Shown here: one piece after another, positions 7,059-55,884 of the stretch
Position numbering within the stretch: position 1 is the first letter of the stretch
Layout: each line of letters opens with the position of its first letter
Assembly: GCF_963675165.1 (NCBI RefSeq)
Contig: NC_087387.1
Coordinates: 2,655,501-2,719,500, forward strand
Length of the DNA stretch: 64,000 bases
Source of the DNA: Halichondria panicea
Taxonomy: Eukaryota; Porifera; Demospongiae; Suberitida; Halichondriidae
Direction of reading: 5' to 3'
Made by a program: the position numbers and the translations under genes
Notes under the pieces: generated by a model
Databases searched by the model: none
What the model saw: only the letters and a program-made list of their open reading frames with translations
What the model was told of the DNA's origin: nothing

Positions 7059-7192
7059 CAGAGGAGGTACGACAGGCGCGGTGCAGCTCAAGCAATTAGC
7101 CTTTGATTGAGCAATAATTGTCTGCCCATGTCGTATGTTTGTAATCAGAGGCTAATCGTTTGAGCTGCACTGCACCTGTTGGACCTCCTCTG
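7059..7192. mobile_element. Mutator-like MITE, 134 bp, 9-bp target duplication
   Basis: Termini are CAGAGGAGGTACGACAGG at the left and its inverted, slightly diverged copy at the right; inner parts (AGCAATTAGCC...) also pair. It is flanked on both sides by GGTACAACT (7050-7058 and 7193-7201), a perfect 9-bp direct duplication. A 9-bp duplication is typical of the Mutator-like superfamily. Sister copies lie at 26289-26423 and 55225-55367. Confidence 0.9.
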
Positions 7193-7257
7193 GGTACAAC
7201 TATTACACAGCTTTCAGGAGTGCACATACTCCTAGTACAATCATGTATATAACTCAC

Positions 7258-9383
7258 CAGTGATGTACTCTCCAGAACATCCCCACTTCCTAGTACTCCA
7301 GACAATGAGGGAGTTGAACAGATCGTAGTAGTTGGCTATCTGGATGTCGTCCTGCAGCAGAATAATAATACGATGAGCATACATACTCTATTTGGTTACC
7401 TCAATGAACTATGGATGGCCAATGAGCAATTTAAACACAGCTCCCCAAAAGCTTGTTTTACTTTTGAAATTGGATAATTCTCCAAACCGGAGTTAGGGAT
7501 AGTCACAAAGATAAAATCAACAGTATTGTAGGGACAGCCTCAATTGCATGCATGTGTTCTAATGGCAAATTAATGTTACTGCACTAATTCACCTCTTCTG
7601 GTGATCCCTTTAGCTTTATGCCAATGCGCTTTGGCCCTGGACTGCAGGTGGAAAATCGGAACTCTGCATTCTTGATATTAGCACTGTGTGTGCAGCTGGC
7701 CGTGGTCACTGCTCGTCCTACCAGGACTACACTGTACTTTGACCCAGGGTAGAGGGTGTTCTGAGGTATGAACTCCGCCCTCTGTTGGCGAGCATCGTAA
7801 CTGATCCTGCCCTTGACAGTACTGAGAGATGAGTCCACTGAATTACACGTCACCTAGGTGGAGAAAATCATCGTCATTTGTACATGTACACGTACTGTAT
7901 ATGAAGTGGTTTGGAAATGCAAAATGGGTTAAAATCTGATACAAGTGAGATAAGTACAGTGCAGTGGACGCATACCGTATTACTACAATGTTTGCTAGCA
8001 AAAAAACTTAGCCAATCAGCAGAAATGTTGACACTTTGAGATATAACTTTTTAGGATTATGATGGACGCATAAGCACTGGTCAAGTAGGTCTTATTTATG
8101 CGAGGCTATTAGTACTCGCAAATTTGTTGATGTTCGTAAAACATTGTAATAATACATACGATAGTGAGCAGTAAAAAGATTCAGTGGAGAAATGGTAAGG
8201 AGCATGTATGAGTAAAATGGTATTGAGATTATAGTTGTAAAACTGATGATCCCAAATACTAATACTGATTGTATATTGTAAATTGATGTGTTGTGTACCT
8301 TGAACTACACGTACATTGTATCTTTCAGATTAAACAAACTGTTATATTGCTGGCACCGTGCTAACTTGAACCCATAATCACCTAGCAAGGGAAACACCCA
8401 ACATACACTTCAGTATGGTAGGTTCACCACCGGTAGCAAGAGTATATGATAGAGAAGAGAGTATCGAACGTAGGCATACTGTACATCGGAGAGTAACGTG
8501 ACTTCCTGTATCTGTCACAAGCTTGGAATTTGCACACTGACCAATCCAAGTGTGGGTGATGTAATCTATCAAAGTAGATTACATCACCCACACTTGGATT
8601 GGTTTGATAGATTACATCACCACTCTTGCCGGTAGTTATGTAGAATGTAGACTTCAAACTAAACGAAACAGAATATTAGTAGTACAGTCCTACCTCAAAG
8701 AGTTTGTTAATATTGACAGTCTTCACATCACGATCAAAAAATATGGTGATTTTGGAGTCCAGTGAAATATCTGTGTCTTGGTTGCCAGGGGTGATCCTGG
8801 TGACATGGGCTGAGAGTTCATCAGACTCGTTGCCAGACGAGGAGGACAGCGGAGACATGTCACTAGTGGACTGACGACGATTCATAGACTGAGGGACGCG
8901 CTGGAAGAGGGGATTAAATATTGTGTGATGTGCGGGATACTGCGTGTGTAGTGTGGGGAGGGTTGTAAGTTTTCATGAGACATGGGCACAGAGACATGCT
9001 ACACAATTACTGTATACTGCGCATGTAAAGTTAACTGCCACTGATTCTGGCCTTCATATATTGTAGGCCTACACCATTGTATCTAGTCCTACAAGTGTAC
9101 AGCTTTTAATAGGATGGGTACTTACAGGAGATTCATGTCTTGACACCACAGTGTAGGACCTTCTGTCTAGACTTCTGGGTGGCAGGGGAGGACTGACACG
9201 AGACGAACCACCCGTACTAGCCGTGAATGACGGTGTACTGGTAGTCTGTGATGATGTAGAGTATCTTCTAGACACTGGGGCTGGGGGGAAGGACTGGTCA
9301 TACACGTTCTCGTCTCTTGAGGTTGGAGAATAAGCTCCTCCGGCCACCTCCACTCCAGGCTTGTTACTGGTGTTGTTACCCAT
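7258..9383 (-). CDS. Putative N-myristoylated, proline-rich protein with bacterial-type Ig-like (SbsA/Big_5-like) domain; 3' end open
   Basis: Exons 5'->3': 9383-9126, 8900-8694, 8651-about 8592 (end uncertain), 7853-7593, 7351-7258, all but the third joined in phase 0. ATG at 9383 is preceded in frame by a stop and begins MGNNTS, a textbook N-myristoylation start (Gly2, Ser6). Then follow a Ser/Thr/Pro-rich tail with PPLPPR (PxxPxR, class II SH3 ligand) at about residue 66. The second to fourth exons (VTRITPGNQDTDISLDSKIT, then FIPQNTLYPGSKYSVVLVG) match the pattern of SbsA-type Ig-like domains: P-G-x-x-x-I-x-L-D at the start, F-x-P-x-x-x-L-x-P-G-x-x-Y near the end. The fifth exon (DDIQIANYYDLFNS) resembles a beta-grasp segment. 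Membrane-tethered adaptor is inference. A terminal exon below 7258 is not resolved. Confidence 0.6.
7975..8155. mobile_element. MITE of the CCGTATTACTAGAATG family in an intron
   Basis: The left end CCGTATTACTACAATGTTTG pairs with the right end, which reads GTATTATTACAATGTTTTAC on the other strand. A TA lies just outside the left end, compatible with TA duplication (Tc1/mariner-like). It sits in the intron before the exon starting at 7853. Confidence 0.7.
8541..8602. repeat. Perfect 28-bp palindrome with 6-base loop
   Basis: CCAATCCAAGTGTGGGTGAT (8541 onward, 28 bp to 8568) is repeated exactly in reverse complement at 8575-8602, separated by TCAAAG. It overlaps the uncertain 3' border of the third exon of the Ig-like gene, so it could influence splicing of that exon or be a very small insertion. 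Confidence 0.85.
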
Positions 9384-9777
9384 TGGTTTCACAGACTGTT
9401 GATTTGGCTAGCTGTGATTCTTCTAGCGTCTTTGGCTAGCTGTTTATGCCAGAATTAAAATCTGATTTGGTCTACAATATTTCACTTTATACCAGTAATT
9501 AGAATCTGCAAACTCCAGCCCCACCCACGTCATAGTCTGCAGAACTGCAAACTGATAATTCTGTGCTTATCTATGGTACCATGCACCCTAGCCCTGTAGC
9601 TGTATCTTGTGACACTTGCCATTTTGTGCATGAAACAAACAATTTAAGTGATATAAGGTTGGGCCAGAAATAAGGTGCTGATATCTATCTGCATAATGTT
9701 AAAAACAGGCCTGCCCTGTCTAACTAAAAAAACATACATGACATACAATTATCATTGTATTAATTGCATTTGTGCTG

Positions 9778-12700
9778 TTATTTCACTCGGCTGCTAAGCA
9801 TATGCTCGTAATAATGAGTTTCCTCGGAATAAGTTACAGCAAATGATGACATGTCACCCATCATCATATTGCTGGTAGATGCTGTGTACGGTAGATCATT
9901 GTAAATTAAGTCATACTCTCCATTTGGTGCCTCTGGTGCCTCCTGGCTAAACAACCCTGTGTGCAGAGCCGAAAAGCCATTGCTATTGGTCACGTCCATT
10001 GCTGCATGATTGTTTTCAAGGTGATGAAGTGGTAGTGTTGCAAGAGGGTCAGAATTCGATTGTCCAAGGTTATCTGGTTGTATCTGGGAAAGAAATAAAT
10101 GAGTGTCACCATTCGGAATTGGTTGGGAAGATAAGAATTCCATCATTCCATGCTCATCTCCCATGGTCCCATTGCCACATTCCATGCCAGTGAATTCATT
10201 GTGCATCGAATCAGGAAGGGGAAGTGGGTGCATTTTCGAGAAGCTGTGTTTTCTTGCACTGGACGGTAAATTTTCCAGAAGGTCGTCACTAAGCTCACTC
10301 CCAGTAAATGAGTAACGAGAACTCTGAGAAGATTTCCAGGATCTTTCTGACCAGGTGTCACTGCTCTGTCTACGAGTGTAGGCTTCTCTGGGAGAAAATC
10401 CCTGCTTCATAGGAGGATATCTCGCATCATTTACTTGTGCATGAAGGGGCGTATTGACAAAATTGAATCTCGGAGACACTGGTGGATGTGGTCTCAACAC
10501 GTCACTTCGCCCACTGTTGCTACAAGGCGAAGATACTCGAGAGCTGTTTGAAGAGAATGTGGAGTACGAGTTTGTCATGTTGCTACTGCGAAGACTACCA
10601 CTTATTACAGAGCTGTCATCGCTGGGGGATTTTCTGTTTCCAGTGAATCCGTTTCTCCTTCCGTTAGGGTACGGATTCTGCTGAGTGTTACCCGTCAGAT
10701 TCGTCTGAATGTTGCTCATCGATTGGTTGCTGTGGGTAAGCTGGAATTGTGAGCACTTGGAATGGGTAGAAGACGGGTACGAATGCGAGGGGATATGTTG
10801 CAAATGGGAAGGGGGCGGGGTAGGATGTATGCCAGCCGGCAGTGTCAGTCTTCCGCCGTTTTGCCAGCTGGCTCTCACGTTTGGGTTAATACGATCTGTA
10901 GCATGGCCGCCAGTAGGGAGGTGTACAACATCATTCGAATCGCTTAGTCTTTGTTGTTGCAGAATGTGGGAAATTTCCTCGTCTCCTCGTAACTTGGGGT
11001 ATTCTGACTCACCCTCAGGCATTGAGTTGTAACTAAGCTGTGATGAATTGTAGCCTTGAGACCCACCAGAAAAGTAGCCATGATCTGACATGCCTCCACC
11101 AGAAAGCTGAGGGTGGACTGGAGGGAATGCACTTGCTGATGGTGCAGACGGAGGGGCATTCGTTTTTCTTTTGTCTGCCTTGCGTGTTTTGGATGGTTTT
11201 CTGGTCACTGGGGGTGGTTTTGGCTCCACAACATCATCTTCTCCACCAGATATGGTATCAGGATCTCCTGTTCGTGCCTGTAAAAGTTAAACGATTAAAT
11301 AATTATTGTGCATGCAATAATTATGTGTTAACAGCAGACAAGTCACTTACTCTTTTATTGACTTGACAATTTTTAACGTGTTTTCTTCTTGAGCTTGGAT
11401 CAGTGTACCTCTTGGTACAGCCAGGATTTGGACAGGCGTATGGTTTCTGTATAAAGACATACACACAATAAACATTACATACTGCACCTGTTTGTATCTC
11501 AGATAAAGTTATTCTCGGATGACTATTTTTAGAAAAGGACTTAGTTGAATGGAGTTGCACAATTTAATGGGTCATTAAGATGAAGTTTTGCAGAATGAGC
11601 ATAATGATAAGAATGAACAACGAATTAATAGCAAGAGGAATAGAAATGCAATACATCTTTTAAACCTTGGCAGAAAAATAGGATAGTTTATTTATCCTTT
11701 AAAGAGTGTTTGTAGTTCAAACAATCAACCTGCATTGCAGTCAATCTATTCATGCCGTCAGTCTAGTGCACTTGTTTAATTATAGGTCACAGCTGTTACA
11801 AATTATTCCGCAAGCTAACATAGGAAGTAGTGATTTCTCGAATTGGTAAAATAACGTACACCACATCGGGTTTCATATGCAACGTTATTTCGATTCTAAA
11901 TTGGTAAATTGTAATAGCAAGAGTGAGCATGCGCATGCAATGATGCTTTGCTGCAATTCGAAAAGCAGTCAAGCTTGTAGTGTCATTCACAATCAATTAA
12001 CCTCACATTCAAAACCTGATACGGTAATTACCGTGTGTACCTACCGTGTGTACCTAGACACACAGAACTTCATGTTCTTCAAGAGTAATATTTATCCACC
12101 AGGAAAATACTAACTTACTTCATCTGTGTGTGTCCTGTTCATGTGTTTTGCACAGTCAGAAGCATTTGAGAAGGCTTTGGAGCATCCTTCAAACTTGCAC
12201 GTATATGGCCTCTCTCCAGTGTGAGATCTGAGGTGAGTTTTGAGATTCTCCAGACGAGAGTACGCCTTATTGCATCCATCGTACTGCAAGGAGTGAAATG
12301 GATACAATAGATAAGCAATCCATGGATACAAACAATCAGGTGATACGTGCATATCAAATTACAGGTGGTGGTGATCGGTCGAAACTTAATCCGTGTTGCC
12401 CACCTCTATCATGCATGTGAATAGAAAACACAGGATTAATGCCTCTGGTGGTTTCCTGAACCAACATTTGGTAATTGAATTTTTATGGTGAAGTGATTAA
12501 TTAGGTCGGGAATGTATGGAACTCTATAAATGGAATTAGTAATTTACATCAAAGTTGTTGCAGACTAGTAGGTGTGCAAAAGTAGCGTATTCATGACCAA
12601 ACTAAAGGGCAATAGTATTCAAAACCTAATTTGTAGTGCGGTTAAACTCATTCACGATGTAACCTTAATCAGCACGTTTTCGTTTGGAGCATTATTATGT

Positions 12701-14720: not shown

Positions 14721-14741
14721 TTTCACTGCATGAACTGTCAA

Positions 14742-25579: not shown

Positions 25580-28500
25580 CTATTCAGTTTGTTCTGGTTT
25601 GTACAGTTCTGCCAATTTGAGGACTATCTGTTCCAGTTGGGGATTTCCCCCAAGCTTCTTGATTTCCCCTAGGGCACTTGCCTCCAGCTGCACTAGAGTC
25701 TGTTTGGTGTGGGCAAATGACCCGGCCTGCATGTAATTGCATGTGCGATGTGTGAGGGGAAGAGAGGTAATTAGTATAATATGGGCATGTGAAATTAAAA
25801 TTAGTGGAACCTCCATTAACGACCGCCTCCAAAGAGCAACCACACGCTATATAACGGCCAAGAGCTCAGGTCCGGATTTAAAATACAATGACTTCAATGT
25901 AAAGCAACGTACCTCTCAGGAGCGACCACCTCTCCACTCCATATACATAACGAACAGCCACACCCATAATTAACAGGAAATTATTGCTGAGCTAGCATAT
26001 TTTGCATAATCGTGAAATTACTGTATAGCTGGTTATTTTTGAGGTTTTCGAGGATTGACCTCGAAGAAAATTGGGTATTGAAACCTCTAACTGTACATAG
26101 GGGTATGGTCATTTGAACCTTGAACCTCTATCTTCCGAAAATAAAATCCGCTAGTTTAAGCAATCTGTGAAAATTTAGTGCCTCGAAAATAACTTCTTAT
26201 ATACAGTATTATAAACACCACCGACATAATTACGCCTACATGGGTGTCCTTTTGCGATTGAGGTCGTGGTACATGCATACATGTGTATCAGAGGAGGTAC
26301 GACAGGTGCAATGCGGCTCAAGCAATTAGCTTATGATAAAACTCAACAATAACACATGCAACACATATGGCGGATAAATAGGCAGAGACTAAATTGCTAA
26401 CTGCGCCTGTCGTACCTCCTCTGCAATGTGTATACTGCAGAATTATTATACGTAATTATATATAAGCAGGTGGATTTGTAAAAATAATGAGGGCCTAAAG
26501 CAGCTGGAATCGCCTACCATAGGCCAACATTTTGGCATAGAGTTTTACATACACCTTTGACAAGGCCAAAAATTGACCACACCTACTAACTAAAGGTGTC
26601 AATCTGCACTGTTTGTAGGACGCTTACGTGACACACACCTCTTCAAGACACTGTAGGAAGTACTTCTTAATATCATTGTCTGTTGTTCTTTGCTTCAAAA
26701 TGCCTGGCACGAGTCAAGGGTGTACCTTTGAATATCCCTAACTACGCCCACAATGAACTTTGGCAGTTTAGGTTAAAAATAAACTGCGTCAATAATGCAT
26801 GCACACCTACAGGGTACAGTGTATATACACACAGATGTGTCGTACTGTAAGTTTTAGTTCACATTGATCACACAATTACGGCTGCATTTTGTAAAGCCTG
26901 TACTTGTGCTATATACTACAAGGGTGAGACGTATACAAATACAATCGTGTACTTATATACGCCGGCCAGTACGTTAACTCAACATCATCATCCTTGTAAA
27001 CACATACCTGCTCAGGCAATGCCTACAAATAATTATTATACTGGTAAAGGAGCCACGTACTATTAATAGCCTAAAGCTTGAACTACATGTAGGATTGGTA
27101 CAGTAGACTTTTGTACAGTAACACTGACAGACAACAAGGAAGATCTTTATCCACTTTCAAAGTTATGCTGTACTTCATCACATAACTACGTACAGTGGTA
27201 TCATGCGTGCATGTATACATGTACATGTAACATAGTAATTAAGGATACTGATAAGTTTGGAGGAGTCCCTGTCGTGTTGGATGCCGTGAATGATGGGGAA
27301 AGAGAACTTTCCCTCTGTTAGATCCTCACAGAAGCTCTTGTTTTCGGTGTACTGGTGGGGATCGAATTAAGGATAAGGATAAGGATAAGGGCGTGACTGT
27401 TTAGGGCCACTACACAAGCAGTTATAATGATAATGATTAACAATCATTAGTCAACTTTCTAGTTAAATTTAAGGGAGAAGATTCACTAACATCTGTACAA
27501 CAGATAAGGTCGATGAAGGATAATGGTCTGCATACTGCAGATTACAAGTACTACTGCAACACTTATTTAAGTGCACAACTGAGTGTACAGGTCTACGTGT
27601 GTGTACCTCTTTTGAGACCAGGTTTGCATAGTCGTCTCTGATTTGGAAAAAGAGGCCGAGTGCATCCAGTAGTGCTGAGTAGTCTCTGTTAGAGAGAAAA
27701 ATGGACTCAACACAAATTCAAACTTAAAGTTGTGTAGCTACCATACCGGAGAAACTGGATTATTAGCATACTCGACTATAAGCATATCTTTATTTTAAGT
27801 GCGCTCAACTTGAGGTTTTTTTTGAATTGAAGTATTTTTCCAATTATGTGAGGATATTGATTCAGCTAATTTCGTTAGCTAGCTTGGTATAGATCCAGTT
27901 AGGGTTGCCACTTACCTAGCTTACTCACTTTATAACTAGATATCAAATCATCCCTTGTCACAGAGATATCCGGTTACTGGGTGGGGCTCGAAAAGGACTG
28001 CATTACAGGTTCATTCTCAAATATAAGCATATAGAGCTCTGCTATTGACCCCATGAGTGCATGTGCTAATAATCCAGCTCACGGCAATTATGTAGGAGTT
28101 AAATGGTTCTAGGAATACGTGTGTCTAGTTAAATGGGCTCACGCTTTGTTTTCACTGAACAGCTGCATAAGATCAACAGCCAGTTTAAACAGTCCGCCAG
28201 TCTCTGTATGTGGATGACATCACCAATAGCTAGTAATACAAATCCACATCAAAGCCAATAAATATAATTGTGTCTGCATGCACACCCAATTAGTCAAATC
28301 ACACTAACACAGCAGACTTACTCTGCTGGACCATTTCCATGTACTCGGCCTCCGTGGGGCAAATGTAGCAGTCCCTCCAGTAGATGTCTTTACCCTGTCC
28401 ACGATGAAGCTGTAGCAACTGAGCTGTGCAGGGGAGTACATACATTAAGCTTGTACAATACGAAACATGGACCGAATCAAGAAGCTCGTGGGAGATTCAT

Positions 28501-29993: not shown

Positions 29994-30013
29994 CTAGTAA
30001 TAGGGCAACAAGT

Positions 30014-33118: not shown

Positions 33119-33410
33119 TTACCGTATAGCGCGAAATTTTTGCACGAAAACTAAGTCCACAAAAATTGTTAGAATTATTTGCTATAACGTGCAAAGATTA
33201 AAGGTGTGGCTTCCGGTAAGCAGTGATTCCATGAACATTGTGCAACGAAATGCTTTTAGAGGCCATTCCACGAAATCAGAGGGGGGTACGCCAATGTCAA
33301 AAGGTCACTAATTAAAACACCATGTGGGCTTATGTAAAATTGAGTTTACCCTCGCGCCCCTGGGTTTATACACCAGTAACACCACCCACCATAGATAAAA
33401 GAGACAAATG

Positions 33411-34057
33411 CAGAGGAGGGAGGACACGATTAACCTTAGCTCTAATTAGCTAATTATCGCGACCTTTTAATTACATTCTTTGAACGATTCATCTTTTCTT
33501 TCTTTATAACCTCTATGTGGACATATTGGACACAAGAGCTAGAGCAAAGTAAGCCTTTTCTCCTACTGGAGGTACCCCTATGGCCAAGTTGTCAGGACCT
33601 GAAGGTAATAGGACCCCTATAAGAAGCACCTCAAGTACTCCCATCTCTAAGATCCCTGTGAGAAGCATCCCAGGCACTCTGATCTTGTCTCTGTGAGAAG
33701 CACTCTTGATCTTGGAGACAGGATCCCTATGAGGAGCACCCCAGGCACTCCTGTCTCCAAGATCCCTGTGAGAAGCACCCCAGGCACTCCTGTCTCTGTG
33801 ATAAAGTTGCAACATGGAATTGTTTAGTTCAGAGTGTCTCCAACATGAAGAACATCAATGACACCAACAGTCTCAGCTTCTAGCACCCCTTTATTTGTAT
33901 GGTTTGCTCTGTGCCTGCAAGAATTGCCTGTCACTCATACTACAGTACTGTTCTGTGTGTCCCAATATGTAGAGGTTATAAAAAAAGAAAAGATGAATCG
34001 TTCAATTAAAAGGTCGCGGTAATTAGTGCTAAGGTTAATCGTGTCCTCCCTCCTCTA
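33411..34057. mobile_element. Mutator-like non-autonomous element, 647 bp, long inverted ends, 9-bp duplication
   Basis: Begins CAGAGGAGGGAGGACACGAT and ends with the inverted copy; pairing extends about 90-100 bp (33411-33513 with 33972-34057). AGACAAATG occurs directly before (33402-33410) and after (34058-34066): a perfect 9-bp duplication. The centre (33560-33800) is an imperfect tandem array of units around GATCCCTGTGAGAAGCA; it gives a repetitive minus-strand frame that looks non-coding. It shares its terminal CAGAGGAGG with the three 134-143 bp MITEs. Confidence 0.9.
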
Positions 34058-34201
34058 AGACAAATGGATAGGAAACACTTAGCGCCTCGAAAACTATCCG
34101 CGTTTCCCCCGGGATTCATTCGAGGCCGCCTACTGTACATGGAAAAAAATGGCCAAAAACACAAAAAAGAGACAAAATTTAATGATTGTCTTACTGTCAG
34201 T

Positions 34202-34288
34202 TAGCCTCGGTCCCAGGCCGATATTTTTTAATAGAACGAAGTTGACCTAGCGTTCAATTGGAGACCGATCGGCCTGGGGTCGAGGCTA
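34202..34288. repeat. Short hairpin MITE of the TTAGCCTCG family
   Basis: TTAGCCTCGGTCCCAGGCCG at the left pairs with CGGCCTGGGGTCGAGGCTAA at the right around about 45 bp. Related text: the centre of the fold-back at 1980-2050 and a diverged copy at 54900-54970. Confidence 0.75.
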
Positions 34289-35191
34289 ACTGTCAGTCCC
34301 TGCTGCTGAACTTTTACTTCTGTTTAATACTTGAGGCTATATGACACACAGTACACTACTTATATAGGTTGTTCTAGCTGTATTATAGGTGTTATTGGTA
34401 CAAGAAACATCCTAAGTAGTGAAAGCAATGCCTCTAGCTACTTCTTAGCAATCCCAAAAAAGTTTCTGTTATTTCCAAATGATACGTAGTATAAAGGGAC
34501 ATTAAATTGAAGTGGTAGGGAGACTTGGAAGGTCTGAATTTTTCAAAACAGCCATAGAAGTAGTTTTCCTGGGGGTTTGGGAGCGAAACATGGCTGTATC
34601 TTAGTTCAGTGTATGTATTTTATATGCAGCTTATGGGATCACGTGATCCGTTTCCTATCCATTTCTCTCTTTTATCTGTGCACCCACTAGCTTTATCCTC
34701 TTGCATGCACATGTGCAGAAATCAGTTGAGCAACTATGAACACGTCGAAAATTTCGCGCTATTGATGTATTGTTTGGTAAAGATCATCATTAAGTTTTGT
34801 ATAATGATGTCCTCTGGGCAAAAATAGTCCCTCAAAATTACCCGCTACGGTAGTGCAGTGAGCCAGTTCAGCAACATTTTGTTGTGCGTAAGCTAGTGTG
34901 TCAACTTGCTAGCTAGCTAGCTAAGAATAACATTAATGATCAATCAAAGAACACAGTATTACAGATTAATCCAACCTTTCCGGAGAAAGCAAATTCCTAC
35001 CCATCTCTTTGAAGGGGAAAAATAACCTGTCCCAGCGGTTAGCTCAAGGCTACATATATATGAGAGGAGGTAAGCATAGATAATAGAGGAAGTTAAGTAT
35101 CTGGCTGTGCTTGGGTATGGGTATGGATCTAGCCACCATATAGACTGGACAGAAGTGGTTTAACACTAAAACGAAAGCCATGGGTTGGTTG

Positions 35192-35702
35192 GTAGATTCA
35201 TAGATTGAAGAGTTAGAGGGATAGGAAACGGTTGGTATCTCGAGTAACATCCGCGCTACGCTGCGGTTTAATCGAGGCCTTCACAACAATATCTATTTCT
35301 ACACTCAGTGCATAATAAACTACAAGTAACTGTGCTTAGTCCGTGCAACTCACTTACATTCAAGGTCTATACCTATTGTATACTAGTAGTCATAACCAGC
35401 ACGCTTACACGTTATATGTTCCGCCTTGGGAACATATAACTTTATTGGAAAGTCTCTTTTTACTGGGTGTGGTCAGTTATTAGCAAGTACTACACGTGGC
35501 TCATGGACTAGGCGTGTTATAAATTGCTGAAAGAGATGATGTCTCGAGGAAACACAGCTTTGGGAGTTACCCGGCAAAAATGTGCTTAATATAGCCTCGT
35601 AATGCGGATAATTTTCGAGGCTCCACTGCAAATTCAATGTAAAATCATCACGTGCACCACTCCGTTTCCTATCCCTCTAACTCTTCAGTCTATGGTAGAT
35701 TA
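35192..35702. mobile_element. Inverted-repeat element of the GGATAGGAAACGG family
   Basis: The left arm at about 35192-35232 and right arm at about 35662-35702 share a run of about 33 bp ending GAGGGATAGGAAACGG. A sister element surrounds the Mutator-like insertion at 33391-34680. The interior holds no coding sequence. Confidence 0.7.
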
Positions 35703-36905: not shown

Positions 36906-36910
36906 TATCA

Positions 36911-37185
36911 TAATATCATGCATACTATATATATATAATTATATCATGTACATACTATATATATCATGCATACTATAATTATATATCATGTACATACTAT
37001 ATATATCATGTACATACTATATATATCATGCATACTATATATATCATGTACATACTATATATATCATGCATACTATATATATCATGTACATACTATATAT
37101 ATCATGCATACTATATATATCATGTACATACTATATATATCATGCATACTATATATATCATGTACATACTATATATATATATATT
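36911..37185. repeat. AT-rich satellite, alternating 18/20-bp units
   Basis: About 7 copies of a higher-order unit of about 38 bp made of CATGCATACTATATATAT and CATGTACATACTATATATAT. Several frames stay open through it, giving repetitive Tyr/Ile-rich peptides that are by-products of the array and not proteins. Confidence 0.9.
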
Positions 37186-38171: not shown

Positions 38172-38181
38172 AGTTGCAACT

Positions 38182-38511: not shown

Positions 38512-38733
38512 CAGTTGCAACTGCATTCTGTACTGCCATGTGCTTATGCAAGACTGGCCTGTCACTGACTGTTTGCGCATGCGCAAAATTATTGGCTATT
38601 TTTATTTTTTCTAAAAATCCTGACAAAGAATATGAAGTCATACACATATATAGCTAGCTAGCTAGAGACAGAGCTGTATGTTTTATTGCACAGCTATTTT
38701 ATTTCTGATAGAGTCAGTAAGTAGTATAGTATA

Positions 38734-38940: not shown

Positions 38941-40349
38941 TAAGTCACACAAATAGGAAAGAAAAAGTATTTATACTTATAATATAAATACCATGTGCAC
39001 GATGATGAGCCAATTCCATCAGCAGGGTTACCTACACAGATCTTTAGAGAGTGGAATGTTTCAAGAAGCGTTTGAACTACAGAAACGTTTGTCAGGATAT
39101 CTCTGAGCATGGGGCACTTGCTCGGCTTTATCTGAGTCGACTACAAATTAACACGTAAATCTTTCTGAGCAGTATTAAACAGTTAACAGAACATCTGCTC
39201 TTGTACTGTTTCCCTGTGTTACTGTCCTAATTATGCAAAGGGTGAGAGAGGGGATCGAGATAACATTTTAAATTGGTAGGTGTAGATGATGGCAGCCGTT
39301 TGACAAGTGTTTTGAGCGATTCAACTTCAGAGTGAACGTAAGCAACCAATGGCACAGTGAGACTATCAACTGAGACACTTTTAAGAGCTCAGGTGAGATG
39401 GACAAAGTCATCGTAAGACGTCTCCTTGCTTCTCCCTTTTTTTCTCTGTTCTTCCTGCGGATTGCTAAACCACATTTTCTTCCATGCACATAAGATTAGC
39501 AAGCACCCTCACTGGCGGAAAAGATCACCCTCAATGTAGGAGCCTCAATGAAATTTTGACACTAATATCGCACTATATAAAAGTGCTGACTCAGGTTTGG
39601 GTCGGGTTGGAGTTCCTTCTATGGCTTCTGTGCATTTACTTAGGAGTTGGAGGTTAATTACAGTCGTACCCAACCTCCTCCGGTTAAACAAAAAACAACA
39701 ACTACATGTAGAGAAACTATAAACCCGGGGTGAACTCAGTTTTACATAAGTCCACGTAGTGTTTTAATTATGACCTTTTGACCCTAGTATTCCTCCTCTG
39801 TACACGAACACATTGGTAGTGCTGACTCGATCAGCGTTGGCTTTATGTTTGGTGAGGCATCAGTACCATGTCGCAAGATCTCACGATATAATAAGTGAAT
39901 TCTATATAGATTTTATAGGCAATGTCTTGAGCATAATGTATCAAGTCTATACACCACTGATTTTCTGCTATGTGCATGCATTTGGCAAGGTTAGATAATA
40001 GTGGTGTATGATAATACATGCACTGGGAGTAATTATAGGATGACAGCCGCAGAGAGTCAGTAAAAGAATCCTGGATAGGGCTCTCTACATGGGAATGTGT
40101 GCGCCTCGAATTAAATCTGTGTTTAGCTAGCTGGTACTCCAAGTTCAATAGCATTGAACTTGCTAACGAAACCTTTATGTCAAAATCTGCCACAAATATA
40201 AAGCTAATCACTTGTTATGTTGAGGCAGTGCGGTAAGCAGACTAGAATCACCAACAGACACACTGACCGACTCTATATAACCTGTGGCTACGCGCCTGTT
40301 TTAATTATAGCCTGCATTACTTGACTCTACCCTATCTATAGGTTCAGGC
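38941..40349. other. Intergenic / 5' region of the ankyrin-Roc-COR gene
   Basis: No coding exon recognised. An acceptor-like CCTATCTATAG stands just before the start codon at 40350, so a 5' non-coding exon is probable somewhere in this stretch. Confidence 0.45.
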
Positions 40350-43300
40350 ATGGCTAGTTATAGCCATGACACACCTCTACACATTGCTGCAAGCTGTGGA
40401 GATGAAGAAAAAGTGAGAAAGTTTTTAAAATCGCAGCAATATAAAGTAGATGTTGTGAACTCTGATAAACAAACCCCCCTTCACCTAGCATGTGCCAATG
40501 GGCATCTGGTTACCGTAGACTTGCTAGTCAATAACTTCAATGCCAGTATTGGAGCTCTTGACAATGAAGGGTTATCTCCATTACTTCATGCTGCAAAAAG
40601 CAATCATATACAAATAGTGATCATTTTGATTCTGTTGTCAATGTTTGGTAGACGTATCTCTAAAACTACCAGAATTCGAATTCCATACGAAGTATGTCAT
40701 GTTGAGCGTAGCCACACTGAGCTCCTGGAAGAAGTTGTCTTTGAGTACTTTAACAATCCTCAAGCTCAATTGATTACAGTTAAAATAATCAGAGAGTTAT
40801 TTGATGATGTTATTGATGATGTAGAGAACTGCGAATGCAAGTTTTTCCCATTATTTTTAGCATCGTCACTTGGACTCCAAAATTTGTTTGAGAAGTTGAT
40901 AGTAGAGAAGGGAACTAGCCTTGAAACTAAAGGCTTCTTTGGTTTGTCTCTTCTCCATTGTGCCTGCTTTGGGGGTCACACTCAACTCATTGAACATTTT
41001 GTAGATCATTACAAGTTGAACCTTAATGCTAGAAGCAGGAACGGTAGGACGATTATTCATTATGCATGTTTTGGTGATCACACAGAGCTTATAGAAAAGC
41101 TCATAATCAACTATCAACTTGATCCAGCTCTAACAGATGAAAAAGATAATACTGCTCTGCATATTGCAACTATGACAGGTCAAGTTGAAACAGTCAGGTA
41201 CCTTATCATTAAACACAAAGTTGTGATTGACTGCAGAAATAACCAAGATTTAACTCCCTTGTGTTTAGCCGCTCGAAATGGTCACCTGTATCTAGTAACT
41301 ATGTTGATTGACGAGTTTAAGTGCAGTTCACAAGTCGTAGGCTACCATGGGCGAACTCTTCTTCACAAAGCTTGTCAAGGGGGTAACGTGAAACTAATTG
41401 ACAAGCTTATTAAAGTATATGGACTTGATCCAATGGCTAGAGATGACAGTGGAAACACCCCTTTACACATAGCAGCCATAGATGGACAAGTTGAAATTGT
41501 AAAACATTTTGTCACTATGTATAAGCACAGTGTTGACATTGACAGCACTGATGACGAAGGCTCCACTCCATTATGTTTAACTGCTCAAAATGGTCACTTG
41601 AATCTGATAAGTATGTTTCTAAATGACTTTAAGTGCAGTTCCAAAGTCAAAGGCTGCAATCAGCAGAATCTTGTTCATTATGCCGCAAGAGGTGATCACA
41701 AAGAAGTGATTGATATGCTAGTTAAAGTGTATGAAGTCAATCCAAAAATGAAAGATAACAATGGGAACACCCCTCTCCATGTGGCAGCATTGAATGGAGG
41801 TGTCAAATCAGTGGAACACCTGATTAAAGAACACAATATTGAGAAGGAGAGCACCAATAATTGTCAATCCACTCCATTGTGCTTAGCTGCAAGCAGAGGT
41901 CAACTGAAAGTTGCTCATATGCTCCTTTATAACTTTAAATGCAGTGCTGCAGTCAAGGGCTACCGTGGACGTACACTCCTTCACTATGCATGTAAAGATA
42001 GCAACATAGAACTGATTAGGATGCTAAAATGTTTTGGTGTGGATCCAACAACACGAGATGACTATGGTGACACTCCTTTACATATAGCAGCTGTGTATGG
42101 ACAAGTTAAAACAGTTGAATATCTAATTACTGAATGTAGTGTTGAGAGAGACAGTACTAACTACCAAAAATCAACTCCACTGTGCTCAGCTGTTTCAAAA
42201 GGTCACGTGCATTTGGCACAAGTTTTAGTTAAAGACTTTAGATGTTGTCCACTTATCAAAGGCCACAACGGTCAAAGTCTCCTTCATTATGCATGCCAAT
42301 GTGGACATACAGAAATGTTCGATATGCTAATAACAGATCATAACCTTCAGATAGAAAAAGATCATGATGGAAACACACCTTTACATTTAGCAGTCATGAA
42401 TGGACACATTGATATGGTGCAACACCTTTTTAGTAAATACATTGATTGTTTCATCACTAATGCGGAAAAAGTATCTACATTAAGTTGTGCTGCTCGAATT
42501 AATTATGGGTGTGATGGGAATATCAAAGGTCAAACTCTTCTTCATTGTGCATGTCAAAATGGACATGTGAAACTGGTAGATATATTGGTTGAGGACTATA
42601 ACTTTGATTTAACAGCTAGAGATGTGGATGGAAATACACCTCTTCATGTGGCTGTCCTGAACTGTCAAGTTGAAACAGTGAAACACCTTGTTACACAACA
42701 CAAAGTTGATGTTCACTGTACCAACAATCATTGTGCCACTCCGTTGATGGTAGCAGCTCTACACGGTTACATAGATGTGATTGAGAATTTAGTTACTGGG
42801 TTCCATTGTGTTCCAGAAGTGAAAGACGTCTTTGGTAAAACTCTCCTCCACTATGCTTGTGAAGGTGGTCACACAAAACTGGTGGATAACCTAATATCAA
42901 AGTATAAGCTTGATATCTTTGGTAAAGACAATGATGGAAACACACCTCTACATATAGCTGCTCTGCATGGACAAGCCAAAACTGTTAAGTACTTAATTAA
43001 TAGGCACAAGGTTGTTAAAAGCAGCAAAAACAATATCGAATCCACTCCACTGTGGCTAGCAGCAAGGAATGGTCATCTAGAGGTTGTGAAAATACTGTAT
43101 TATAGCGAATGCAATGAGCGAAATCTTTTACATTTTGCATGTCGTGGGGATCACACAAAGCTGCTGGATGAAATAGTATCAGAACATCAGATTGATTTAA
43201 CACAGCCAGAAATAAATGATGATGATGGAAATACCCCTTTACATTTGGCAGCTATGGAGGGACATATTAAAACAGTGAAACATCTAATTATTAAGTACAA

Positions 43301-46300
43301 AGTTGAGGTTGATCTCACTAATAAGGACAACTCCTCTTCGTTATGTACAGCTGTTTCAAATGGCAAGGAGCACGTTATGAAAGTGCTTATAGAAGAGTTT
43401 GGATGTAATCCTGCTGTGAAAGCTTACAGAGGACGAACTCTCTTGCACTATGCGTGCAAATTTGGTAATATTGAGCTGTTAGACAAAATGGTTACTGAAT
43501 ATCATCTTGATGTTAATAGGAGAGATGATGATGGAAACACACTTCTACACATGGCTGCTTTGAGTGGACAAGTTGAAGTAGTTAATCACCTAATAATGAA
43601 GTATGATGCCGAGAAAGGAGACAAAAACAGTTACAATTCAACTCCTTTATGTGTTGCAGCTCGTAATAATCACCTAAATGTGATAAGACTGCTGGTTGAT
43701 GAGTTTCAATGTAATCCTGAGGCCACCGGCTACAATGGTCAAACTCTCCTTTACTACGCTTACCAAGGGGGTCATTTACAACTTGTTGACACGCTAAAAG
43801 AATTGTATGGTCTCAATGCTACGCTCAGAGATGATGATCACAACACTCCTGTTCATGTTGTGTGTCGAACTGGCAAAACAGAAATGTTAAAACCATTGCT
43901 TTCTGGTATTAACTCAATTTGGACAGTTTTTCAAAGTAATAAATTTGGCAATACCCCTCTGCATACTGCTGCTCTCTATAAGCATACTAGTTGTGTAAAA
44001 GTTTTGCTTAATGAATATAAAGCCCCACTTTTTGTGCGGAACAATGATGGGAAAACTGCTTCAGATTTACACAATGACAAAGTAATTGTTGAAGAACTCA
44101 AAAGTAACATTTCCCAGCAGATCCAATCCACGTATAAAGAGCTTGATGAACTAGCTAGGAAAGAGTTCAGTGGTGAGAAGCATCTTACAAGACTGTTTGT
44201 TGTTGGACACTCTGGTGCTGGAAAATCCACTCTTATTGACACGCTTAAGAAAGAGGGATTTTTCTACATTTTCAAGAGAACTATCATAGAGCCCCATACT
44301 GCAGGAATTATACCTACTACATTTAACAGTACTGACTATGGAAGAATGATTTTCTATGACTTCGCCGGTGATTCTGAGTATTATACCTCACATGCTGCAG
44401 TGTTGGAGTCCGTGGATACTTCAATGGGAATGAACATTTATCTGATATTGTGTGATTTGAGCCAAAGTAGGGAATTTATCACCAGAAAATTTAGCTACTG
44501 GTTTTCCTTCCTTTCTTGTAACATTAGGAGTATCTTTAATTCCATTATTCTCCCTGTTGGGAGTCGAGCTGATAAACTAAGCAGTGATAAAGAAATGCTT
44601 GGAGTAGTTGATAATCTTTCCCAAAATTTTTCTGCAGGTATGGATAATCTGCAAGTAAAAGAAAAAAGTGTTGTGTTAGATTGCCGTGATAAAGGAAATG
44701 TATTCAGTCGAATTAAAGATCTCGTGAAGAAATATTCCACGTCTGTACACCCTGTCCGACTAACCCTTGAGACAAGCACCCTCTTAGGCTTGCTAAGAAA
44801 AGATTTTGAGAATGTTACGGCTTGTGAAGTTCACCGCCTCATCTCCCACATAGTGATGACTAAAATTCCACTCCCAGTAAATCCTTCATTACTTTACCCT
44901 CTTGTTAGAGAGTTGCATAACTTTGGCTTTGTGTTGCTAATAGAAAAACAAGGTGATGCAATTGAGAACCACTTGATTATTTTGAACATTCCAATATTCA
45001 CATCTGATGTACATAGTAAGTTGTTTTCGAAGTCTGCTAAAAAGAATTTAGCTGAACACACTGATCCACTGAAATTGAGTGTGGGTATCATTCCAGAATC
45101 TCTGCTCAAAGTAGTGCTACCCAATTATGTAACAAAAGACTGCCTGCTAAAGCTCCAGTACTGTCAGGAAATTGAGAACTTGCATGTGGAAGAAGACCAC
45201 ACACTTCTTCAATCCCAGACAGCATCGCAAGAGCCACTGCTATTTTTTCCTGCTCTTTGTGAATTAAAAATTGATAAAATTCAGTGGACAACTGAAGTAA
45301 ATGAACACAACGTTACCCTGGGTTGGTATGTTAAATGTGATGGCAGATTTGACCACTTTCCCACTCGATTTCTTCATGTACTTATTGTTCGCTTGTCTCG
45401 AAGTTTTGCACTAAAACAGAGCCTTCCAGTAAGCCGTAGACCGTCTATTGTGTCTATTGACTCCGTATCGTCTATGCCAAACTCTCCTACTACGTTTGAT
45501 TTTAATCGTGAATCTATGCTAGAAGAGGTGTATGAATCCAATCATCGTTGTCATGTCTGGTCAACTGGTCTGCATTGGGTAATGAGGAATGGAGTAGAGG
45601 TGTTTGTTGACTTACCCAAAGATGCAGAAAACAAAGAGCTGGTTGTAGTCACGAGAAGCTGTGATGGATCCAGAGCTGAATGCGCTAACATTTTGCAAAA
45701 GGTTGTTCAGAAAGTTATTGAAGCGAAAGTTGAGTTTTGTCACAGTATCACACCTTCAGTCTATCTACTCGATTCATCTAGTCTTAAACGTAAGAAATTC
45801 ACTGATGCCAGAAAAGTACCACGCTTTACACTGCAAGAAGTTAACATAACATTGGCTGAAGGCAGTAAAAATGCTGTCAGTGTTGATGGGTCACATTGCT
45901 CTTCTCCTAGAGATCTGGCCAACCTCACTAGATGGACTATGTCCTATTGGAGTAAGTCTTAGAGTAATTTAAATTAGCGTGTAATTGTATGCAGTTATTT
46001 TTACAGTTTTTTATGGTGTCCATATTATACAGACCTACTTTTCCCTATGGACCCTGATGATGTAAAGAATGCTATCAAAGATCGAGTGGCTGGCAGCGAG
46101 TGGAAACAGCTAGGACGAAATCTTGGCATTCCTTATAGGGTACTAGAAGACATTGACGTTAGTTTCTCCCAAATGGTAGACAAAAAGTCGGAAATGATCC
46201 AAGCGTGGTTAACTGGCGAAAGCATGCCCACTTGGTTTCACATGGTTGAGGCACTACGTGAACCAAATCTGAAATTGTTTAAAGCTGCTGGTAAAATTTC

Positions 46301-46655
46301 AGAGAAACACAGTAAGTATAATCTTACAATTACTCTATGTTGCCATAATAACATCATTCCATAATTTATCCCAGATTGTACACAACAACAACAAATTCTT
46401 ACTTCTGAATCATCCCACCGTCCTGATTCAAACTTTCTCCAGTCGTTTGCTGCCATCATTGGCTTTCGATGGCAGTGTATAGTGTTTCCCCTCTCCCTCT
46501 CCTCAGAAGACGTTGTGAGCATCAAGAGACAGACAAGAGGAGCAGAACCCACTATACAAGCACTCCTTATGTTGCAGAAGTGGGCAGCCAACAAGACAGC
46601 AACTTATGGTCAGTTGAGAGAGATACTGTGTACACTCTCAGTTTTTAACATTTGA
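40350..46655 (+). CDS. Ankyrin-repeat ROCO protein with C-terminal death domain (DAPK1-like without kinase)
   Basis: Exons 40350-45952, 46033-46311, 46507-46655, joined in phase 1; about 2,010 residues. Residues 1-1,250: more than 30 ankyrin repeats (TPLHIAAxxGxxxxVxxLI pattern). About 1,280-1,450: Roc GTPase with P-loop GHSGAGKSTL, switch II DFAGD and a G4-like SRADKL. About 1,460-1,860: COR domain (for example LPVNPSLLYPLVRELHNFGF). The second exon encodes a death domain (AGSEWKQLGRNLGIP...AWLTGE...TWFHMVEALREPNLK). The last exon (GAEPTIQALLMLQKWAANKT, then ATYGQLREIL) resembles helices 4-6 of a second death domain. Roc-COR is a regulatory GTPase dimer module, ankyrins bind partners and DDs recruit DD proteins. 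DAPK1 has the same order plus an N-terminal kinase, absent here. Cytoplasmic signalling or innate-immune role is inference. Confidence 0.93.
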
Positions 46656-48834: not shown

Positions 48835-49111
48835 TGCATGTTCTAGCATGAGGCATCTTATAGACAACTCTTGCATTCAAATATAAGTTTCGAGTTTAGA
48901 ATATAATTAAGTTTCGTAAAATTAAAACCACTGACTGTGTTGATGTTGATCAGAATTTTGGTCCTGTTGACAAAAGTAATTGTACCTATGTATGCTTCAA
49001 TTGATCGTGAATAGGATAACATACGTGTTGAACACCTGTCTCACATCATTGAGAGTTTAGCCAAAGCACTTGATGTCAGAAAACAGAATCTAAGATGGTT
49101 GTCTTGAGATA

Positions 49112-49345
49112 CCGTATAGCGCGAAATTTTCGAGGCACTTATATTTCGTGGATTGGCCTCTAAAAGCCATTTCGTTGCACAATGTTCGCGGAATGACTGC
49201 TTACCGGAAGCCACGCCTTTAAATATTTGCATGATAGCAGGTAATTCTTATTAAGGAACACTTTTCGTGGACTTAATTTTCGTGTAGAATTCCAACCCAC
49301 GAAATCCGCGAAAATTAAGCCCCTCGAAAATTTCGCGCTATACGG
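49112..49345. mobile_element. Intact reference copy of the CCGTATAGCGCGAAATTTTC MITE, 234 bp
   Basis: Ends CCGTATAGCGCGAAATTTTC and its inverted copy, with TA on each side (49110-49111, 49346-49347), as for Tc1/mariner-type MITEs. No coding. At least eight other full or partial termini occur in the window (near 3786, 3959, 4404, 16960, 26022, 30014, 33121, 61178). Confidence 0.85.
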
Positions 49346-49825
49346 TAGTTATAGCCATGCCTGTGCATTTGAAAAGGAACTTTTCCTCTTCAGACAATTG
49401 TTCACATTGCTTTGAAAGACATCGGAGTGCTGATGTGTAAGCCTCATAACTAAACGAGACGGATTTCAATGAAAGCACTATTGGAGTGAAAGGGGAATGG
49501 CCGATAATTAAACTGAGTCCGATTAGCCCTGATGAATTGAAGCCAATATCATTACGGCATCCAACTATACATGCACTTTATGAAAGGCAATCGTTTTCCT
49601 TATTAAGAAGATACTGTGAATATCCCATACCTACTTCGACTTAACCACGGACACACAGCTGCATTTAGATTTGCTGGTGCTGTTGTTGCTGTAGCATTTG
49701 AGTATAGATCTGCTTGGACAGCGCGCACATCTGGTCGAGTTGAGATGTTTGAAGTAGTGAATTCTAAAGCTGTAAGCAATGTTGGAATATTGGTCGGATG
49801 TGCAATGACTTACGCATTATTTTAG

Positions 49826-50650
49826 TAAGTGTTTTACTTGATGGATCTTTGCTTGCATATTTTTTTACAGTAACAAACTTTTATTTAGTGGCTAGTGAGT
49901 GCATGCATGTTAATTTCATGCCATAATTATTTATACTTTCTACAGCATTATCAAATTTATTTTATGGCTCATGTATCTACTTTGATAATCAATTAATTAT
50001 ATAAGTATTTAAGTTCAGTTGTGGATTCAATAATTAATATAAATTCGACAGACCCAATAATTATTAGTGACATGGACCGTCTGTGGCATGCACAAAAGCA
50101 GATTGTATAATTATAAAAGTGCTTGATTTGATTTGGAATAAAAATTATTATCATGAATGAAACTATGTAACACAAAACAGACACCTAGGATCAACATGTA
50201 TGGAGAATGAAGTAGATAAGTTGTTTACAAAACAAGTGGCAACATAATTATTACAGAATATTATTTTGGCAAGGTTAGTTTGACCGGTTGATGCATGATC
50301 AATGTGGTGTGCACGAATAGACCGTACATAAGTGCTCAATGTAATTGCAATTGAAAAAATTTGCTTAGTGAATGAAACAACTACATGTAGCTATAATTAT
50401 GAACAATTAAAGACAGCATTATATCCCTAATATGTTATTACCAGTATGCCAAAAGAGAAACAATGTATACACAAAACTCGGTTAAGGACACCCTTATAAG
50501 ACTGAAAACATGGTTGCAGGGATGACAACGAAAATCGACAAAACATACAATGATGAACTAATGCATCAATTTAACATTGAGAGCACCCTGTTTCAGCGTT
50601 TGGTACTTTAACAAATTCCTGTTGTGTGCTGAATCTCAGTGTTGGTGATA
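49826..50650. other. Intergenic, AT-rich, nothing recognised
   Basis: Downstream of the semaphorin stop on the minus strand; may include its 3' UTR. No repeat or exon is identified. Confidence 0.45.
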
Positions 50651-52969: not shown

Positions 52970-53225
52970 CTGCTCATAATTATAACTACAATCAGCTAAC
53001 CCTATCACTTTTACTGATCGTTACTACGTGTACTCAATGCACTACACAGTACTCACCTTGCAGACAAATAATTAAACACATATTAGACACATAATTACAC
53101 AGAGAACTAGAGAGAGTTTCACTGGTATTTAGTGTAAAGAGTCACTACAGCAGTCCCATGCAGGTTGTGCTGCAGTCCCACACTTGCTCCACTTACTTGC
53201 CTCTTGTCTGCCTCACCTCGTAACT

Positions 53226-54339
53226 GTAGGAGAGAAAAACACAGGCACTGTCATTCACACAGGAAGAAATTCTGGCTAATGTAAACATAATTATTGTTCA
53301 TGAATAATTATTGTGATAAATAAATTATGTATTGGAAGAGCTCGTGAATGGTGATATAATGATTAGTTCGATCGTCCCCTCAATTACTCAATCGGGTTGT
53401 TTTTCTAGTCTTTTAGAGCTACATGTATATCCGTGTTAATTCCGTATAACCGTATATTAGAAGACAGAAATCCGTATACGGAAAAACCGTATACTTGTGG
53501 ACTCAGCCTATAACTATTATTTAGAACTCGGATAAGAGCCGTTTACACGAACGCAGTTAGGGGATTAAAGGTGTGGTGTATCTCTGACCATCTACCACCC
53601 TTGGGCACTACAGTAACAGGGAGGCTCTGACTGATAATTATTTAATGAGATAATGCAATGGATAGTAATGTATGCTAGCTAAAAGTCCAGATTGATTTTG
53701 TTCACATTCACTTACCACTGGTTCAAACAGTTAGTCGGCTGTACCAGCAGAATCGGGCTCTGCACAGGCTAAGCACCTGCAAGTATTAAACAGCTGGTCG
53801 TTAACCCGCTTAGTCAACCACAACACCACAGCTCAACGGGCCAATAGAAAGGTGACCAATAAACGGATTTGCTGTTTTGCAATTGACCACGGTTAACCAA
53901 GAATCCTAACAACCATGCCAGTGGCAGATCTAGGAATGTTGAGAGGGAGGTTCCAAAACAGTTCATCACTTTTCCTAAGCAATGAGCATGCGCATTAGAG
54001 AGCCCTGCCCACATATCAATTTATGAAATCAGCCTTCATTCAAGCTGAGTTGCTAGCTTGGTAAGTTGATCTCCAGTGTGTTCTTGTGTGAAAGGGGGGT
54101 TCCATGGAACCCATGGAACCCATGGAACCTGTCTGGATCCGCCACTGCATGCATCATGCATCACATACCCTGAAAGGATGTGCCTGCTGACTTGCGCTAA
54201 TCCGACCAGTTGTTTCTGACTAGCTATTGTGCATACATGCATTCAGGCAATCATTCACAATCAGATCGACTCTGCATTCCTACGTACAACACCTGTTCTT
54301 AATTGCATGTTACTCTCATTATTGTAAAAGAGTTTTTTT
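53226..54339. other. Upstream of semaphorin, no exon resolved
   Basis: The missing 5' exons of the semaphorin would be expected here or further up, but no Sema-like frame is found. A short direct triplet of the unit CCATGGAAC lies near 54101-54128. Confidence 0.45.
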
Positions 54340-54435
54340 TCCTGTCCCATAGGGAGCACAGTGACGGGTCCTGTGGTAAAAGAGTGTGCAGACTTGTGGC
54401 CTCAAATTGCCTCTAATGCACCTAGTATTGCTTAA
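54340..54435 (+). pseudogene. Duplicated last exon of RPL23 with its intron acceptor
   Basis: This segment repeats the end of the last RPL23 intron (pyrimidine tract, CCTGTCCCATAG) and the whole last exon to the TAA stop, with a few substitutions (for example GCA to GTA and CGA to CAA codons, Ala to Val and Arg to Gln). Because the acceptor is included, it arose by DNA duplication and not from spliced RNA. Weak similarity continues a little past the stop. No other RPL23 exon is nearby, so it is a non-functional fragment unless captured by another transcript. Confidence 0.9.
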
Positions 54436-54653
54436 GAACTGTTTCTGATTTTGATTTACTTTGTGCATTCAGTCTTTATGGATTCCACCACTAGTAATGG
54501 CATGGAAGGAGTCTTTGTATAAGGAAAATTGTATCTAGAACAAGCTCCTACAAGTAGAACGTGTGTATGTAATCTCTGCAGTTATAATTAGCCTGAGATC
54601 TATATAATATATGTATGAGTGGGTGTGGTCTATCCATTGTGCTTCCTGTATAT

Positions 54654-54780
54654 ACAGTAGACCTCTCGTTAATCTGACCACTCTTGGGACTGCAGCTTGG
54701 CCGGAATAGTCACATTTCAGAAAATAGCCGCGGCTAAAAATCGACCCTAATGTAATGACTAATTTTTGTAATTTTAATTT
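54654..54780. repeat. Partial CAGTAGACTC-family MITE
   Basis: Starts TACAGTAGACCTCTCGTTAA and shares GGCCGGAATAG and ATTTCAGAAAAT with the element at 32113-32452. The right end is not seen. Confidence 0.6.
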
Positions 54781-54899
54781 TAATTAATCCCCCTAAAGTA
54801 CCTGCTATACAGTAGATCCAAATTGTTTATGAGAATGTTTTCATAATCATGTGTTCGATTCTTTGGAATTATACCACTGCGTAGTTTCACATGTGTTCC

Positions 54900-54970
54900 T
54901 AGCCTTGATTCTAGGCCGATTTAGAACGAATTAAGTTGGCGGCCTATAGCGTTTTTTTAGAGACAACAAG
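54900..54970. repeat. Diverged TTAGCCTCG hairpin MITE
   Basis: TAGCCTTGATTCTAGGCCGA to AACAAGGCTA; shares TTAGAACGAATTAAGTTG-like text with 34202-34288 (AATAGAACGAAGTTG). Confidence 0.5.
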
Positions 54971-55224
54971 GCTAATGTGTTCCATCTAATCTATGGTTCC
55001 ATGAGGTAACAGTTAGGCCCTGATAAATTCTTGAAAAATGTAAGGTTATTCCCAAAAAATGTGACATAAAATAAATTATCTATAATTTCTCTATAGAGAA
55101 ATTAAAGAAGTGAGACGTAGCCATAAACCAGCACACAACTGACACTAGGCATAATTAATTAAATTAATTATCATGATTCTCAGTTGCTGATGATTCACAG
55201 TTGCTGACTTGAACTGATCCATAA

Positions 55225-55367
55225 CAGAGGAGGTACAACAGGCGTGGTGCAGCTCAAGCAATTAGCCTTTGATTGAGCAATAATTATCTGCCCACGTCGT
55301 ACGTTTTTGCTGAGAGTAATCAAAGGCTAATTACTTGAGCTGCACCGCGCCTGTCGGACCTCCTCTG
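55225..55367. mobile_element. Mutator-like MITE, third copy, 143 bp
   Basis: CAGAGGAGGTACAACAGG to its inverted copy; GATCCATAA is duplicated exactly on both sides (55216-55224 and 55368-55376). The inner sequence is almost identical to the copy at 7059-7192, suggesting recent activity. Confidence 0.92.
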
Positions 55368-55884
55368 GATCCATAATGTTCACATCCAGCCATTCTTGCC
55401 ATGAGTTATTCAAAACTTAATTAATGTAATGATCTTTACCAAAATTAATATGGACATTGCATGGAGCATAATTTATCAGGGCTTTCAAACTCCTTTGAGC
55501 TACACCACAGGTAAGCAAAAAGTTCTCATGCAGACATTAATTTTGAGTTGAGGCATTCGACTAATATAAAAGTACAAGATGAAGACAAAAGGCAGTGGAG
55601 CAGAGGCTCCCATACACAAGAGAGCCGCCTGGAGCGGGTCCATATAGCTAGGCACAAAAGGAACAAAGAACAACTATACACTAATCAACAGAACTCATAC
55701 AATAGTATATGAACAGCACAAGGTAAAGTTAACCACAGGAAATAGTTAATCTAAGTGCAATCATGACATGACATTGTACAAAAAAATAAGGTGAACACTA
55801 TACAAATGGCACAACTCTCTACCATTTGATGCATGTATAATAATAGCTCTAATTAGAACAACTTGATTACGTGACTCTACAAAC

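Follow-up and report, generated by a model that had tools for sequence, protein, structure and literature searches.

Features of the locus

The window (the whole 64,000-nucleotide stretch of Halichondria panicea DNA analysed here) contains two very long ankyrin-repeat reading frames, at 40314–45959 and 55888–59862. The first of these also gives a Roc-type GTPase match below the Pfam cut-off, and the ORF that follows it (45978–46361) gives a Death-domain match that narrowly misses this cut-off. ORFs of the window also match GLI-type zinc fingers, Sema and Death domains, and together with the ankyrin repeats and the weak Roc match these domains indicate an animal host. An open frame at the window edge (3–629) has Pfam matches to ResIII/DEAD helicases; no match to this frame was found in solved structures at 1e-5.

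The window also holds five inverted-repeat elements, here termed E1 to E5, none of which is assigned to a strand. These are genuine non-autonomous, non-coding DNA transposons of an animal genome. The original prediction had listed five copies sharing a terminus and, when checked base by base, all five proved to be present with inverted ends of the CAGAGGAGG type. The set has the features of MITEs, being short and non-coding with inverted ends and a target duplication, and three short copies lie in the window.

E1 (7059–7192) is a 134-bp non-coding foldback with arms of ∼ 50 bp that contain 7 mismatches, and its ends read CAGAGGAGGTACGACAGG and CAGAGGAGGTCCAACAGG. It is flanked by a perfect 9-bp target duplication, GGTACAACT, at 7050–7058 and 7193–7201. 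E5 (55225–55367) is a 143-bp element with 50-bp arms containing 4 mismatches, and its perfect 9-bp duplication, GATCCATAA, occupies 55216–55224 and 55368–55376. The third short copy, E2 (26289–26423; 135 bp), belongs to the E1/E5 subfamily over one arm, and its two ends match each other at 21 of 22 bp. The hairpins of all three are far stronger than those of shuffled sequences (z-scores of −12.2 for E1, −7.05 for E2 and −14.0 for E5).

E3 (33411–34057) is a longer foldback element of 647 bp rather than a MITE, and its right end reads TAGAGG. Its flanks carry the perfect 9-bp target duplication AGACAAATG (33402–33410 and 34058–34066). A gapped alignment of the two E3 arms covers 124 columns at 78%, with 2 mismatches in the outer 37 bp. 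Arm length is 22–50 bp in E1, E2 and E5 and ∼ 100–120 bp, with gaps, in E3. The interior of E3 contains a duplicated stretch of 90 bp (81%) and a 39-bp tandem repeat of 1.9 copies (33722–33796). E4 (38182 to ∼ 38513) is a diverged 332-bp element that has lost the outermost 4–5 bases of its right end; the end originally predicted, 38511, was slightly short of this position.

Thus, the three perfect 9-bp duplications that had been claimed are borne out, for E1, E3 and E5. In addition, duplications were recognized at the two elements for which none had been given. E2 lies between CATGTGTAT at 26280–26288 and CAATGTGTAT at 26424–26433, a 9-bp duplication whose right copy contains an additional A. 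E4 is flanked by GTTGCAACT at 38173–38181 and 38514–38522, a duplication of 9 bp, or of 10 bp (AGTTGCAACT) if the preceding A is counted.

A shared bipartite terminus

The terminus common to these elements is longer than originally described and reads CAGAGGAGG-N3-RACA, with RACA at positions 13–16. The RACA block is present at 11 of 11 element ends, compared with 1 of the 14 other sites that lie within one mismatch of CAGAGGAGG; the element ends in this count are both ends of E1, E2, E3 and E5, the left end of E4 and, by choice of the analyst, the E4 right end re-registered after its truncation and an orphan terminus at 3557. Nine places in the window give the full score for a motif derived from the element ends, CAGAGGAGGKMNRACANG, and 30 simulated windows contain no such place; the non-element site at 9183 scores 14 of 16 on this motif. 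Nine of the ten complete ends begin with CA and the other with TA. Sites within one mismatch of CAGAGGAGG are themselves in excess, with 24 in the window (13 on the plus strand, 11 on the minus strand) against 8.3 expected, and none of 100 shuffles contained as many.

Beyond position ∼ 18 the elements diverge. The arms of E1, E2 and E5 are common to the three, whereas E3 and E4 each have arms of their own, which BLAST does not match to the arms of the short elements. The description of the set as one family is therefore a loose one, which holds for the outer 16–18 bp and fails for the arms of E3 and E4. From this pattern we infer that a recognition end of 16–18 bp may be combined with free interiors.

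The orphan terminus (3540–3557, minus strand) is a full match to the motif (CAGAGGAGGTCTGACATG), and an element belonging to it would extend leftwards; no motif-bearing partner end was found to its left in the window. The helicase-like frame at 3–629 lies on the side towards which this element would extend. Two copies of an 11-base repeat delimit 776–3569, where TAGTAACACTT directly precedes CAGAGAACAG at 787 and recurs, at 3559, one base past the CAGAGGAGG end of the orphan. A sixth element of 2.77 kb, bounded by the orphan end and this 11-base repeat at 776 and 3559, was considered. The TAGTAACACTT repeat together with CAGAG is expected by chance at only ∼ 3e-6 on base composition, but neither the duplication length nor the left end fits, and the candidate was rejected because its left end shares little beyond CAGAG with the motif and an extra base is present on the right. 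The same region contains an inverted repeat at 787–1147, CAGAGAACAGCTCCATAT...ATATGGAGCTGTTTTCTG, with arms of ∼ 50 bp and no duplication by eye.

Duplication length and an empty site for E3

When the boundaries of E1, E3 and E5 are set at CAG...CTG (or CTA), a duplication of 9 bp fits and lengths of 7, 8 and 10–14 bp do not. A perfect 9-bp duplication flanks 3 of the 13 convergent pairs of CAGAGGAGG sites within 4 kb of one another, and duplications of 7, 8, 10 or 11 bp flank none of the 13.

The window was also scanned without reference to the motif, for elements of 60–4000 bp that end in an inverted repeat of 14 bp (at most 3 mismatches) and are directly flanked by 9-bp direct repeats. It holds five such cases, whereas 20 windows simulated with a Markov model averaged 0.05, and three of the five are E1, E3 and E5. 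At 8, 10 and 12 bp all matches of the same scan lie inside an AT-rich tandem repeat (36926–37168), and at 11 bp there is none in the window. At 7 bp, a length that was run without simulation, nine cases were returned, and three of these are E1, E3 and E5 displaced by a single position.

The other two cases from the 9-bp scan, at 1995–2162 and 34202–34288, represent a second inverted-repeat family that begins TAGCCTCG. The copy at 34202–34288 (87 bp) is flanked by the perfect 9-bp repeat ACTGTCAGT, and that at 1995–2162 by CTATAGAAG. The latter overlaps a hairpin of ∼ 235 bp (1903–2137) that is 93% complementary along its whole length and has TAGCCTCG...CGAGGCTA (1995–2046) at the centre.

A paralogous repeat copy on the minus strand, at 34650–34680, serves as the empty site of E3 and contains the 9-mer once, as AGAGAAATG, with one base different. 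Joining the flanks of E3, with one 9-mer retained, gives a junction sequence identical to this copy at 29 of 31 positions; of 40 random pseudo-junctions, none scored above 22 of 31. More diverged copies spanning the E3 junction lie at 35199–35278 (69%) and 35664–35696 (79%). As several copies span the joined junction, it follows that E3 inserted into a repeat. A repeat containing CCGTTTCCTATCC is present several times at 34648–35694, and E3 is inserted into another copy of it. The search of the window gave no empty site for E1, E2, E4 or E5; other spanning matches were weak (E ≥ 0.045) or came from the element's own flank.

Common termini, 9-bp duplications and one empty site are thus directly visible at this locus, and the part of the original prediction that spoke of inverted-repeat elements transposed with 9-bp duplications is supported, the E3 empty site included.

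Divergence between E1 and E5

E1 and E5 had been described as nearly identical and so as products of recent movement. Over 134 aligned bases 122 are identical (91%) and the copies also differ by a 9-base indel; BLASTN, with the gap counted, gives 85.3%. All 12 substitutions are transitions. If CpG positions are defined as those where E1, E5 or both have a CpG, 9 of the 12 fall in this class and only 3 of 114 bases differ outside it; since the class is set partly by the differences themselves, the small P value obtained is too favourable. The claim of near identity is not sustained by these values, while the few differences at non-CpG positions do agree with some recency. E1 and E5 look to be moderately young copies affected by CpG decay. 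Across the window the CpG observed/expected ratio is 0.52 and that of TpG is 1.29, and low CpG with raised TpG suggests that the genome may be methylated.

Searches for a transposase and for relatives

Of the 174 window ORFs of 66–999 aa on the list, 135 were searched against Pfam; they matched 21 families (E ≤ 0.01), no transposase among them. The remaining 39 ORFs overlapped larger frames or the AT-rich repeat, or were themselves large gene frames. A second scan, likewise without a transposase, covered eight ORFs, of which four had been included in the 135, two came from the 39 and two exceeded 999 aa. The ORFs scanned were of at least 66 aa, and a transposase gene broken up into short exons could have escaped notice. 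There were no Rfam matches in the window.

Relatives were sought in other collections by exact-pattern scanning, and none was recognized in viral contigs or in one scan of genome contigs. The 20-bp terminus gave no match in viral contigs. The genome contigs contained 5 stretches that matched it, but their alignments to the elements did not exceed 35 bp, and by our estimate this number is close to the chance level for this pattern. A two-ended pattern with a gap of 100–130 bp matched 11 stretches in viral contigs; none of these has a duplication of 4–12 bp, and their arms beyond CAGAGGAGG differ at 18–27 of 31 positions. The 18-bp motif matched 29 stretches in viral contigs. Among 45 loci that were fetched, pairs of ends (at most 3 mismatches per end, 60–8000 bp apart) numbered 8 in 4 loci, none with a duplication of 7–12 bp. 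In the literature, no transposon title was among the matches listed for CAGAGGAGG, and no paper on these elements was among those listed for sponge or Amphimedon MITEs and MULEs, Repbase and Dfam lying outside this search. The main text of one sponge genome paper (PMC12465263) contains neither ‘mutator’ nor ‘transposable element’.

Discussion

Inverted repeats are abundant in this window, with 181 pairs of at least 16 bp within 3 kb, and in principle the elements could be chance inverted repeats or segmental copies rather than transposons. This reading is barely credible. Chance accounts for 0.05 instances of 9-bp repeats flanking inverted repeats where five were seen, similarity between copies stops at the element ends or within 3 bases of them, and E3 has an empty site; for E1, E3 and E5 the reading is already refuted. 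The CAGAG start, and the CAG...CTG termini as a whole, recall those of hAT elements, which have ends with a CAG-type start and whose MITEs are likewise small hairpins. The hAT target duplication is 8 bp, however, as against 9 bp here, where exactly 9 bp was found at 3 of 13 convergent pairs and 8 bp at none. Furthermore, the base immediately outside CAG on one side of an element is not complementary to that outside CTG on the other, and the boundary therefore cannot be shifted to give 8 bp. Mobilization by a hAT transposase is accordingly quite improbable.

Since no transposase was seen, any enzyme that yields 9-bp duplications would fit, and the elements might be mobilized by that of a P element, of Rehavkus or of an undescribed superfamily, a group of possibilities that we regard as unlikely. 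P elements make 8-bp target duplications, compared with 9 bp for the elements of this window. Rehavkus has 9-bp duplications, inverted repeats of 26–400 bp and a minisatellite (PMC6446971); a 9-bp duplication is present here, and E3 holds a short tandem repeat. Its transposase has a PHD finger, and no transposase of any kind was seen in the scanned window ORFs. The tandem repeat of E3, however, amounts to just 1.9 copies of 39 bp. In addition, the same source records Rehavkus solely from arthropods and annelids and places the minisatellite before the 3′ inverted repeat. Merlin (IS1016-like) elements resemble the present set in having duplications of 8 or 9 bp and inverted repeats of 24–462 bp (PMC8101967). 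Their termini begin with GG by that account, whereas none of the 10 complete ends here does so and CA is the usual start, which makes a Merlin origin very improbable.

The elements are most likely Mutator-like (MULEs), an assignment reached by elimination. According to PMC6446971, MULE target duplications are 8–11 bp and usually 9, the value that its Table 1 gives most frequently for those MULE groups whose duplication length is stated, and MULE terminal inverted repeats are often long, with 14–500 bp reported. In the window the duplication is a perfect 9 bp at three of five elements, 9 bp with an indel at one and 9–10 bp at one, and the arms fall within the reported range. MULE-derived genes (FHY3) have been reported in animals including a demosponge (PMC10027918) and Mutator elements in placozoans (PMC12221973), and the superfamily therefore occurs in early animals. 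Several points count against the assignment. The scanned window ORFs gave no transposase and the scanned contigs no relative. For MULEs, the 22–50 bp arms of E1, E2 and E5 are short. Five insertions make a small sample from which to fix a duplication length, only three of them being free of indel or truncation, and the CAG start resembles hAT ends. The original label ‘Mutator-like’ thus keeps the 9-bp duplications and the best fit by elimination in its favour, while MULE membership is not proved, no transposase having been seen on an element with such ends.

Among described systems, Tm1, a set of Phantom-type MULEs of root-knot nematodes (PMC3169594), may be regarded as a close analogue. There too, short foldbacks have 9-bp duplications, no two copies are identical, and long and short forms have common ends; 45 of 53 elements have duplications of 8–10 bp, most commonly 9. 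The Tm1 ends are asymmetric (CGGTTAA / CCTACCC plus GGA), whereas those described here are symmetric, and Tm1 has tandem motifs that are mostly of 14 bp and a predicted MULE transposase, in contrast to the scanned ORFs of this window. The derivatives of Muta1, a MULE of Aedes aegypti, are similarly non-autonomous with common termini and varied interiors, and they have duplications of 8 or 9 bp (PMC5225508), compared with 9 bp here and 9–10 bp for E4. Muta1 differs in its 145-bp inverted repeats, which are made of 12-bp tandem repeats, and in a transposase that works in yeast.

On the Mutator-like reading, a transposase encoded elsewhere in the genome would act in trans on these elements. This enzyme, presumably a MULE transposase, would recognize the bipartite terminus, first CAGAGGAGG and then RACA at positions 13–16. 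Movement would be by cut-and-paste, with excision followed by insertion at a staggered cut that gives rise to the 9-bp target duplications, and the inserted copies would then decay largely by CpG transitions, as expected of methylated repeats. A bolder proposal, which we consider distinctly doubtful, is that the CAGAGGAGG-N3-RACA end belongs to a transposase lineage outside the named superfamilies, or to an undescribed MULE clade of an early-branching animal, which would mobilize several arm families with unrelated interiors (those of E1/E2/E5, E3, E4 and the orphan at 3557) by way of one end of 16–18 bp.

Overall, the elements represent new, local families within a known type of transposon, and their description is otherwise routine repeat annotation. 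It adds to an animal genome a well-delimited set of MITEs that duplicate 9 bp, with exact ends and an empty site in the same window, and the bipartite terminus of 18 bp offers a convenient probe with which to seek the autonomous element and hence the superfamily.
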